Origin: a bacterium
Lineage (GTDB): Bacteria > CSSED10-310 > JAJRTK01
DNA: 46,785 nt
Direction: 5' to 3'
Assembly (NCBI GenBank): GCA_024278345.1
Contig: JAJRTK010000357.1
Span: 1 to 46,785, forward strand
Shown: piece by piece, positions 13,342 through 46,785 of the stretch
Layout: every line of letters begins with the position of its first letter
How positions within the stretch are numbered: position 1 is the first letter of the stretch
Translations under genes and position numbers: made by a program
Notes under the pieces: generated by a model
The model's database searches: none
Told to the model about the DNA's origin: nothing
What the model saw: only the letters and a program-made list of their open reading frames with translations

Positions 13342-13444
13342 TCCACCACCCTGCCCTCGCCGAAGAACGGACAGCCCGAGCCGGCCAGAAACCGGAACTC
13401 TCGATAGGTTTCTCCGTTTAGGGCGAGATTCTCGGTAAACTCTT

Positions 13445-13513
13445 TGTTTTCTTTATGTTGCGTTCCGCTCCCATCGGGCGCCGGCCGGCGCCCGCTCCTC
13501 GCCATTTTCGCCC
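13445..13513 (+). repeat. Family S intergenic repeat, copy b
   Basis: TTTTCTTTATGTTGCGTTCC, then CGCTCCCATC and the palindrome GGGCGCCGGCCGGCGCCC, then GCTCCTCGCCATTTTCGCCC. It lies in the 371-nt divergent gap between the AGPS-like gene (-) and the PP2C gene (+), so promoters in this gap must coexist with it. Nothing else was recognised in the gap. Confidence 0.75.
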
Positions 13514-16372: not shown

Positions 16373-16431
16373 CTCGGTCCCTCACTCTCATGATTCGGAG
16401 CCTTAACCCCAAGGGTTTTGGGCAATTGCGA

Positions 16432-16502
16432 GTTTTCTTTTGGGTTGCCTTCCGCTCGCATCGGGCGCAGTCCGTCGCCCGCTACTCGCCTTTTTTTTCG
16501 TC
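16432..16502 (+). repeat. Family S intergenic repeat, copy c
   Basis: TTTTCTTTTGGGTTGCCTTC, CGCTCGCATC, hairpin GGGCGCAGTCCGTCGCCC, then GCTACTCGCC and eight T (16491-16498). It lies between two minus-strand genes. Here the hairpin plus T-run would also act as a terminator for plus-strand transcripts. The remaining gap to 16651 shows no gene. Confidence 0.75.
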
Positions 16503-19409: not shown

Positions 19410-20221
19410 GGTGATCGCAGCTCCCGCGTGATTCCAAACAGCCGATCAACGTCTGACGAACCTCGGGCAAAGCCATCCTTCCGGGCCTCCCACAGTCCGC
19501 AAGCCGAGCGAGATCTCAAACCTCGACGGCTTCCAATAGGTACAAAGTCGGGATTGAAACGTCAAAGAGGGGCGGAGCGCCAGAGCTTGCCATGCTTCAT
19601 TCAACGCTCTTGTGTCCGGACTGGCGGTAGTCACCAAACAGAACAAAGGCGGCCCAATGGAACGGATGGGTAAAGCGACGGCTGCCAGAATCTCCAGCGC
19701 CTCCACGGATGAACCCCAACTGGGCCTCCCTCAAGGCCATATCCGTGGCAAGCCCCTGCCTGAGATGGCGATAGAAGCTTGAGAGCAGGAGGGCTGTCGA
19801 TCGATCAGAAACGCCCCAGAGGCTTGCGACCACCGACCGCGCTCCAGCGTAATGGAACGCTCGCGTCAAACCCATGAGCCCCTCTCCCCGCACCGGCCGG
19901 CCCATTGCGGAACCACAAGAGGATAAAACCACCAAATCGGCGGCCATGCGCAGATTATCGTAGATCTCCCATGCCTGAAGAAGTCCGGATTGCCGGCCAT
20001 TTTTGGGAACGAGGGGGACTGTCAAAGCCAGAGCGGAATTCAGAGGAAAACGGTCGTCCAGAATTGTGTGGCCCGCGAAGTGGAGAATTCTAGCGCGCCG
20101 GGCGACGGATCGCAATTTCTCCTCCGTGGCCTGCTCCCCCAAGTAGGCTTCGGCCCTCGGGCGATAAAGCGCAGTGATCGCTTCCACCTCTACTTGGCTC
20201 CAAGGAAGTTGTCCCAAAGGA

Positions 20222-20438
20222 GAAGGATCGACCTCGGTCATGGTACCAGCCACGGTTCAGATTTCAAACGCCGCCCCAGGGCTTCCAGCCCTGGAACCCG
20301 GCGGAGGCTCTGCCTCCGGACCTCCGCTGGGAGCGCTACTCCCAGACCCACGCCAGGGAGCCAGCTCCCTGGACCCACATCTTTGTGCGCTGCGCGCTTT
20401 TTTCGGGTGGCCGGTACCATGACCGAGGCCGAAGGATC
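20222..20438. repeat. 8-bp target site duplication of the family A element
   Basis: GAAGGATC occurs at 20222-20229 and 20431-20438, directly at both ends of the element. In the CHAT reading frame both copies encode the same Asp-Pro-Ser residues, which confirms duplication of target DNA. Confidence 0.85.
20230..20430. mobile_element. Family A MITE-like element, complete 201-bp copy
   Basis: Terminal inverted repeats of about 24 bp with two mismatches: the left end begins GACCTCGGTCATGGTACC and the right end reads GGTACCATGACCGAGGCC. Between them is a chain of short hairpins: CCAGGGCTTCCAGCCCTGG, GGAGGCTCTGCCTCC, GGGAGCGCTACTCCC, AGGGAGCCAGCTCCCT. Then come TTTGTGCGCTGCGCG and six T. It has no reading frame of its own, so it would need a transposase from elsewhere. 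Confidence 0.85.
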
Positions 20439-20799
20439 CTTGAAGGCGTTCCAAAATTCCGTGGGTCGCGGGGCAGAGGTTTTAGTGGCAATCGTGCGGC
20501 GATAAACGGGATTCCCGAACGCGACGAGATCGAGTAGCGGGGCCGCGGAAGAGGGCTGTTTTCTCTGTTGCCGCAGCTCAGCATAGACTGTGGCAGAAAC
20601 CGCGATGTGGAGGGGTTTCCATTCGATGAACCAAGTGGGCTCCGGGTTGGAGGGCGGGCTCGAAACCAAGGCGGCGAAAGGCAGCGCGTGAAGCGGTCCA
20701 TCGGGAGAGACAACAACACGGGTGGCCGTTTCAATCCAGGGTCTCGCCGGTTCGACAACGGCTTGAAACAGGTTGCGAGAGCGCCGGATAAGGATTTCT

Positions 20800-21037
20800 G
20801 GGTCTCCACGCAAGGCGGGACATTCCCGGGACTGTGGAATTGAAAGCGTCCGGGCAACGCCTCGCTGTCGCTTGGCGGATCACGTTTGCGTGACTCGAAG
20901 GTGGTCCGGGGATTCCATCCCCTGGCAGGGCTTCGCCCCGCACCCACCAGGGAGCTACCTCCCTGGACCCACGTTTTTGTAGGCTCTGCGTCTTTTCTTG
21001 GTTTTGTTGCGTGTCCCGTCTTAACGAGCATGATCCC
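20800..21037. mobile_element. Family B hairpin-rich element between CHAT remnant and sigma gene
   Basis: The left end GGGTCTCCACGCAAGGCGGG matches the element at 46677 in 22 of 23 positions. The right end TGTCCCGTCTTAACGAGC is its inverted form over AAGRCGGGACA. The inside has GGCAGGGCTTCGCCCC and CCAGGGAGCTACCTCCCTGG hairpins and a TTTTTGTAGGCTCTGCGTCTTTT stretch like the core of family A. Exact ends and any target duplication are not clear. Confidence 0.6.
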
Positions 21038-21081
21038 GGCGACCACACCCCGGAAGATGAAAGTGGAAGGCGCGGAGCGCC

Positions 21082-21528
21082 ATGACCACGCCGTCGAAGA
21101 TGGATTCAACCATGTACTTTCATGGTAGGTGGATACCCGTCCGATCCTTGCGGCAGAACGGAAGTTTTTCAAGCTGGTTCTTCCGGCTGACAGCGAACAT
21201 GGCCAACGATCATCTGCGAATGCGGCGGCGAACCCAATCTCTGGAAACGCTGGATGCACAACCCTCAACGGTGGAACTCCTGAACACTGCTATGGCCGAT
21301 CCCCTGAAATTGGCGGAGCTTAGGAACGATCTAGAGCACGTTCAGCGGGCAATCGTCCAACTCCCCGATGGCTACAGGCATGTCCTGGTAAATTACACCA
21401 TGGGCTTTTCCCACCGAGAAATCGCCAGAGATTTGGGTATCCGAGAAGATAGCTCCCGCTCTCAGCTTCACAAGGCCCGGGGAAAGTTCTTTGCAATCTT
21501 CTCCAAATTGCGCGGCAAGAAATCCTGA
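21082..21528 (+). CDS. ECF RNA polymerase sigma factor, 5' part damaged
   Basis: The frame from 21082 encodes SFSSWFFRLTANMANDHLRM (end of sigma region 2) and region 4 with IVQLPDGYRHVLVNYTMGFS, HREIARDLGIREDSSRSQLHKARGKF (helix-turn-helix). An intact ECF factor needs region 2.1-2.2 in front. That similarity (HAVEDGFNHVL, like AEDxVQEVFL) appears in another frame at about 21084-21120, at the exact distance expected if one base were inserted or lost. Upstream of that lies the family B element. It is probably a decaying gene; as written the product could not bind core polymerase normally. A putative anti-sigma gene follows, 203 nt downstream. Confidence 0.6.
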   Translation: MTTPSKMDSTMYFHGRWIPVRSLRQNGSFSSWFFRLTANMANDHLRMRRRTQSLETLDAQPSTVELLNTAMADPLKLAELRNDLEHVQRAIVQLPDGYRHVLVNYTMGFSHREIARDLGIREDSSRSQLHKARGKFFAIFSKLRGKKS

Positions 21529-21588
21529 CATGGGGGCCCGGATTCCACTCTGGTGGTGCTCCAAGACTTCGGGCAGTGGAGAACACCA

Positions 21589-21656
21589 GGGGCGAGAATG
21601 GCGAGCAGCGGGTGCCGGACGGCGCCTGATGGGAGCGGAACGCAACCCCCAAAAGG
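21589..21656 (-). repeat. Family S intergenic repeat, copy d (inverted)
   Basis: Read on the minus strand it is TTTTGGGGGTTGCGTTCCGC, TCCCATCAGGCGCCGTCC, GGCACCCGCTGCTCGCC, TTCTCGCCC. It lies between the sigma and anti-sigma genes. Confidence 0.75.
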
Positions 21657-35077: not shown

Positions 35078-35165
35078 CGGTTCATCAAGAAGGCGACGGA
35101 GGGAAAGCGACGCACGCCGACGGTTCGGTTGCGGGACTCTCACGGGACACAATTCTAGCAACTCG

Positions 35166-35262
35166 TTTTTTTTTTTTGAGTTACGTTCCGCTCGCGTCGG
35201 CACGACCCGCGCCTGCGGCGCGAGTTCCCCCCGTCCGCCGCCACTCGCTTTTGTCGCCCACC
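35166..35262 (+). repeat. Family S intergenic repeat, copy e (long form)
   Basis: Starts with a run of 12 T, then GAGTTACGTTCCGCTCGCGT and the same central GC-rich hairpin region as copy a, ending GTCCGCCGCCACTCGC, TTTTGTCGCCC. It lies in the 363-nt gap after TatD. Confidence 0.75.
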
Positions 35263-40906: not shown

Positions 40907-41022
40907 GATTCACTCCGGTGCATCTCTTCGTGCCCAAAAAAGTCTATGACCAGCGCCACCCGACAGATGGATGCTGGAATGCCTGAAGGGAAAAACTCGG
41001 AGAAAATCCCCTGTTTTCATTT

Positions 41023-41092
41023 TTGTTGGAGTCCGCTCCCGGCGGCGGCAATCCGTCCGCCGCCACTCGCCCATCATCGCCCTTCACCTGCG
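41023..41092 (+). repeat. Family S intergenic repeat, copy f
   Basis: TTTTTGTTGGAGTCCGCTCC, hairpin GGCGGCGGCAATCCGTCC/GCCGCC, then ACTCGCCCATCATCGCCC. It lies between the lipoprotein gene and 41139. Confidence 0.72.
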
Positions 41093-43882: not shown

Positions 43883-43961
43883 CGGCAATCGCTCCCCTCT
43901 GGTGCGGCTGTGGTTTCGGGGAAAAAAGGTGCGCGGTATCGCGCCCTATCCCGGAGTCACA

Positions 43962-44018
43962 GGCGAGTAGCGGGCGTGGGACCGCGCCCGATGGGAGCGG
44001 AAGGCAACAAAAAAAACG
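43962..44018 (-). repeat. Family S intergenic repeat, copy g (inverted)
   Basis: Read on the minus strand: TTTTTTTTGTTGCCTTCCGC, TCCCATCGGGCGCGGTCCC, ACGCCCGCTACTCGCC. It lies in the 351-nt gap between 43882 and the dksA-like gene. Confidence 0.75.
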
Positions 44019-46676: not shown

Positions 46677-46785
46677 GGGTATCCACGCAAGGCGGGACAA
46701 AGATTGGAAATAAAAGGAAAACGCGCAGCGCACAAAAACGTGGGCTGGGATCCCGTTGCCCTTCGTTGCAACGGGAAGATGAGCG
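46677..46785. mobile_element. Family B element, cut by window end
   Basis: GGGTATCCACGCAAGGCGGG matches the left end of the element at 20800. It is followed by AAAACGCGCAGCGCACAAA, the inverse of the core motif of family A, and a GC-rich hairpin CCCGTTGC/GCAACGGG. The rest is outside the window. Confidence 0.6.

Follow-up and report, generated by a model that had tools for sequence, protein, structure and literature searches.

A 201-bp segment flanked by a perfect 8-bp duplication (GAAGGATC) divides a protease-like CHAT gene in the 46,785-bp stretch of bacterial DNA analyzed here (the window; Table 1). The locus raises the question of whether this segment is a mobile element and, if so, which transposase moved it.

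The interrupted CHAT gene and its insertion

The two pieces of the CHAT gene appear as open reading frames on the minus strand (20238-20813 and 19597-20253), and the net insertion of 209 bp shifts the frame of the CHAT gene and introduces a stop into it. The N-terminal piece matches positions 4-92 of the Pfam profile PF12770 (E 6e-11) and the downstream piece positions 101-289 (E 9e-53). When the pieces are joined, the match is contiguous (4-289, E 6e-67), and the 201-bp segment is thus foreign to the protein. The initial annotation had proposed that the frame is restored once the element is removed, with the catalytic His and Cys downstream; the joined profile match bears this out, and both catalytic-type motifs (HFAGH and SSCGSA) are located in the downstream piece.

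The left and right terminal inverted repeats (TIRs) of the inserted segment are identical at 22 of 24 positions. Both the boundaries and the perfect duplication were as initially described, with the small correction that the left TIR of the window copy carries two mutations and that the family's own end is GGCCTCGGTCATGGTACCGGCCAC. The segment had further been called non-autonomous, which agrees with the lack of a substantial gene of its own in the list of open reading frames and with a family of about 110 genomic copies. Being short, bounded by 24-bp TIRs, devoid of a transposase gene, and present in many copies with duplications, it can be classed as a MITE. Its interior carries an array of hairpins, and the predicted RNA fold of positions 20254-20406 is more stable than that of shuffled sequences (z = -4.2).

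Table 1. Features of the window that bear on the interrupted CHAT gene and on the element families discussed in the text.
Feature	Position	Strand	Basis
Right part of a second element copy, cut by the contig end	1..133		98% identity to 20298-20430; TIR 23/23
Downstream piece of the interrupted CHAT gene, carrying the His and Cys motifs	19597..20229	-	Pfam PF12770, profile 101-289
Target-site duplication, left copy GAAGGATC	20222..20229		Sequence
Non-autonomous element of 201 bp (MITE), assigned to clade I of the proposed DUF6399 transposons	20230..20430		TIRs, duplication, about 110 genomic copies
Left terminal inverted repeat GACCTCGGTCATGGTACCAGCCAC	20230..20253	+	Sequence; family consensus starts GGCC
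Cargo: four short G+C-rich hairpins, then a GCGC hairpin and T run	20270..20404	+	RNA fold
Right terminal inverted repeat, GGCCTCGGTCATGGTACCGGCCAC when read inward	20407..20430	-	Sequence
Target-site duplication, right copy GAAGGATC	20431..20438		Sequence
Upstream (N-terminal) piece of the interrupted CHAT gene	20431..20799	-	Pfam PF12770, profile 4-92
Composite repeat: full clade-II DUF6399 end at 20800-20822 (GGGTCTCCACGCAAGGCGGGACA) and split far end	20800..21138		TIR scan, 23/23
Terminal repeat of the clade-II DUF6399 type close to the contig end, from another small element	46677..46699	+	Exact match to GGGTATCCACGCAAGGCGGGACA

Copies of the element in the genome

The genome assembly (6.06 Mb in 550 contigs, 88% complete) contains 225 TIR sites with at most two mismatches, compared to two for a reversed-pattern control, which corresponds to the above copy number if two sites are assumed per copy. 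Many copies are approximately 95-97% identical to each other, and sister subfamilies with the ends GGCCTTGGTCATCGTNCYGGCCA range from 132 to 260 bp in length and share the hairpin array. Among 28 distinct copies that were readable, i.e., had 12 bp of flanking sequence on both sides, 13 were bordered by duplications of 8 bp and four by duplications of 9 bp, nine had none, and two had 4 or 5 bp. Since about one quarter of true 8-bp duplications would be read as 9 bp by chance, the length of the duplication is 8 bp. Assembly errors or recombination possibly account for the nine copies without duplication. The existence of further genomic copies with 8-bp repeats, which the initial annotation had set as a test, is thus borne out by 17 of the 28 readable copies (8-9 bp).

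Numerous contigs terminate roughly 100-140 bp inside the element, indicating that the family fragments the assembly. Two contigs carry one copy each with identical duplication and flanks (GTTTTCTG; L003 and L013), pointing to a duplicated region or redundant contigs. The ISL3 element resident in this genome is itself split by the same small element, which lies in the transposase gene with the duplication GTTCAAGC(G) (C5:335-535; L017 and L092). Outside this genome, the element had no match in the plasmids searched or, by blastn, in 40 other genomes, none of which was closer than the phylum level, and the exact TIR was absent from the viral contigs searched. A separate dispersed repeat (TTTTCTTTNGGTTGCNTTCCGCTCNCATCGG...) occurs in the window at 147-187, 13437-13477, 16424-16464, 35160-35200, and 41005-41045, with inverted copies at 21588-21646 and 43961-44014.

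DUF6399 genes bordered by closely matching ends

G003, a genome from a different family of the same phylum, contains 18 sites of the end, compared to none for controls, and includes a 127-bp element with an 8-bp duplication (GAGAAAAC). On three of its contigs (C87, C56, and C127) the C-terminus of a protein of the Pfam family DUF6399 is encoded approximately 40 bp inside such an end. A helix-turn-helix reading frame near an end in the same genome (L147) had weak matches and was left aside. DUF6399 was found in two of eight genomes of the phylum, namely the genome studied here and G003, and these same two are rich in such ends.

Scanning 84,980 species genomes for DUF6399 yielded 80 loci. Ends were scored at 79 of them, including that of Thiodictyon, with several loci being truncated or one-ended. 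An exact 8-bp duplication was present at 32 of the 79, and none had a duplication of 4-7 bp or of 9 bp or more. Fifteen of the 32 stem from a single Leptolyngbya strain and thus show mobility without being independent, and clade I (see below) contributed four. Complete single-gene elements of 1.83-1.92 kb with exact 8-bp duplications were found in Chromatiaceae, Magnetococcales, and Chloroflexi. Plasmid pTs417 of Thiodictyon syntrophicum carries one DUF6399 gene (558 amino acids) in an element of 1916 bp with the ends GGCCTTGATCATaaaTCCGGCCA and GGCCTTGATCATCGTTCCGGCCAC and the perfect duplication GTCCAACC. The complete element of Lamprocystis has a length of 1918 bp, that of a member of the Magnetococcales (L184) 1882 bp with the ends GGCCTCGGTCATCGTTTCGGCCA and the duplication CCAATCTT, and that of a member of the Chloroflexi (L183) 1833 bp with the duplication CCGAGCTA.

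The ends fall into two types: clade I (GGCCTYGRTCATCGTTYCGGCC) in the Chromatiaceae, Magnetococcales, and Chloroflexi, and clade II (GGSTAYCNACKTAAGSCGGGACA) in cyanobacteria, methanotrophs, Desulfobacterales, and others. The window family has ends of the clade-I type (GGCCTYGRTCATCGTTYCGGCCA), which are identical to those of the Magnetococcales element at 21 of 24 positions, and a sister subfamily end is identical to that of Thiodictyon at 23 of 24. The nearest complete elements thus match at 21-23 of 24 positions, short of identity, and share the 8-bp duplication with the small elements. The expectation of the initial annotation that the ends would point to the transposase family that moves the element was met by a lead to DUF6399, which is no named transposase family.

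In the genome studied here, an intact DUF6399 gene was not found in the 88%-complete assembly, which contains fragments only. As contigs below approximately 3 kb seem to be missing (the shortest one seen is just over 3 kb), this absence is weak evidence. One contig (C507) carries a clade-I end together with the start of a DUF6399 gene that is interrupted by the small element with the duplication TCGCTTTC, and on another (C80) a DUF6399 C-terminus adjoins a clade-I end. On four further contigs (C188, C36, C438, and C390) DUF6399 pieces adjoin clade-II ends. Beside clade-I ends the fragments reach their highest scores with clade-I proteins, and beside clade-II ends with clade-II proteins, with the assignment on C80 being marginal (37 vs. 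35 bits over 21 residues); the end type agrees with the protein clade in these remnants. A candidate long element on two contigs (C417 and C150) was rejected, as it holds a lipoprotein-like host gene and no transposase. This gene lies beside a clade-I end on both contigs (L107 and L113), which suggests a duplicated segment.

Clade-II ends are represented by 494 sites, compared to none for controls, and small elements with the end GGGTATCCACGCAAGGCGGGACA form a second, larger set, in which eight of ten readable copies have duplications of 8-9 bp. Their hairpin cargo is similar to that of the clade-I elements, and the presence of comparable arrays in small elements of both end types may reflect exchange of the cargo or selection on it. 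The composite repeat in the window immediately precedes the CHAT fragment, whose profile match stops just short of it, and no 8-bp duplication was seen at this repeat. A unit of approximately 105 bp (ACGAGCATGATCCCGG...CTTTCATGGTA) is located inside its clade-II terminal repeat (about 21018-21130) and also occurs at three other loci (L255, L265, and L164), in one of which (L255) it is present twice in tandem; inverted repeats are not obvious in this unit.

A putative transposase and its alternatives

DUF6399 (Pfam PF19936) is annotated as a family of unknown function, and a literature search retrieved no paper that names DUF6399 or PF19936. In an alignment of 21 members, the residues D178, E179, T180, F181, D232, D252, F254, H255, and E505 (L184 numbering) are invariant, which includes a D-D-DxxH-E pattern with DxFH at 252-255. 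The AlphaFold model of the L184 protein (pLDDT 88) has strands at 171-181, 185-191, 196-203, 224-231, and 248-251 and a long helical insertion, and places E505 on a helix at 502-518. This predicted layout is that of an RNase-H-fold DDE transposase with a helical insertion. When aligned with VIA-align, the model matched the core of MMTV integrase with a Z score of 15.1 over 140 residues and the ISCth4 transposase with 13.8 over 259 residues; ISCth4 (6xgx) was also the top Foldseek match, with an E value of only 0.013.

ISCth4, a member of the IS256 family, has the residues D175, D241, C262xxH265, and E348 as well as a helical insertion, and its duplications are 8 bp long (PMC7780238). DUF6399 resembles it in the predicted RNase-H core, the helical insertion, the duplication length, and a C/DxxH motif that follows the second Asp with similar spacing, but it differs by a larger helical insertion, different ends, and the lack of significant sequence or profile similarity. 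Comparisons with IS256, IS66, ISNCY, and ISAs1 proteins revealed no significant sequence similarity, and in Pfam and NCBIfam scans no named transposase model claimed the DUF6399 proteins. One of the 21 members touched an IS256 variant model (E 1e-4), and these scans and hhalign gave no match at the level of IS256 membership, which fold features by themselves do not confer. A profile search of PDB sequences returned nothing convincing, and no match was found in PHROGs. DUF6399 therefore appears to function in the manner of IS256-type DDE transposases, though it is not filed as a member of that family.

These observations suggest that the 201-bp element was very probably inserted by a DUF6399 transposase acting in trans with an 8-bp stagger. 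The small element would bring only its 24-bp ends and the hairpin array. The N-terminal helix-turn-helix region of the protein supplied in trans would bind these ends and the enzyme would synapse them, and a target cut staggered by 8 bp, in either a copy-out or a cut-and-paste pathway, would lead to the duplication upon insertion into the CHAT gene. Catalysis would be carried out by the RNase-H-fold domain with D178, D232, and E505, and the DxxH at 252-255, which is interrupted by a long helical insertion. Decayed DUF6399 copies of two clades in this genome correspond to two matching sets of ends, and hundreds of small elements bear one set or the other.

Three other explanations were weighed against this one. 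A native origin of the segment within the CHAT protein, as a natural insertion or an intein-like part, could be argued from an open frame on the other strand that runs through part of it. However, the insertion causes a frameshift and a stop, and both the unbroken profile across the join and the copies elsewhere with other 8-bp duplications already refute this reading, which has practically no probability left. A transposase of a known family could also move the element, the link to DUF6399 then being a coincidence of nested insertions. The IS1595, ISL3, and ISAs1 families make duplications of about 8 bp, and all three are present in the genome. Their ends, however, differ from the GGCCTCGGTCATGG end: the IS1595 copies end in GGCTCTATATGCGATCC / GGCTCTATATGCG, the ISL3 copy in GGCTCTTCGCCATCTTTGAGG / GGCTCTTCGCC, and three ISAs1 copies at contig ends near CATGGCAATCGCATCA / CATGGCAATCGC. 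A search of the 88%-complete assembly with IS256, IS6, ISAs1, IS66, and IS4 transposases, with one query each for IS6, IS66, and IS4, retrieved hits to ISAs1 only. In addition, closely matching ends occur on complete DUF6399 elements of unrelated bacteria, so that mobilization by one of the three resident families appears very improbable.

It could furthermore be argued that DUF6399 is a passenger or regulator, with another gene, located elsewhere, mobilizing DUF6399 elements and small elements alike. Mobile elements with passenger genes exist, and the function of DUF6399 is a predicted one. On the other hand, the gene fills nearly all of the complete elements of 1.6-1.9 kb, the acidic triad is invariant in a fold predicted to be integrase-like, and the DUF6399 clades track the end types. 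A passenger role is therefore highly unlikely, and catalysis by DUF6399 itself, with mobilization of the small elements in trans, is the preferred reading.

Short, geneless elements with inverted repeats, duplications, and high copy numbers, such as Correia, ERIC, Chunjie, and QMITE, are known from other prokaryotes and thought to be moved in trans (reviewed in PMC10969869), as is proposed here for the window family. The latter differs from them in that the libraries searched do not list its proposed mobilizer as a transposase, PF19936 being annotated as of unknown function, and in that two DUF6399 clades would each serve one of two parallel sets of small elements. As the ends of the element lead to DUF6399, this family looks like an unrecognized class of bacterial transposase. 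It likely represents an insertion-sequence family that is not recognized in the annotation libraries searched and that is distributed from cyanobacteria and Chloroflexi to Chromatiaceae, with a DDE domain, an IS256-like helical insertion, duplications of 8 bp, and two or more end clades. The two clades present in this genome would have driven parallel expansions of hairpin elements (about 350 copies in 6 Mb). A protein family previously without a function would thereby receive a testable one, and a direct assay can draw on the exact ends, the length of the duplication, and the putative catalytic residues given here. Genes currently annotated as "DUF6399 domain-containing protein" would belong to a widespread candidate insertion-sequence family, whose small elements explain many of the repeats at which the assembly of this genome is broken.
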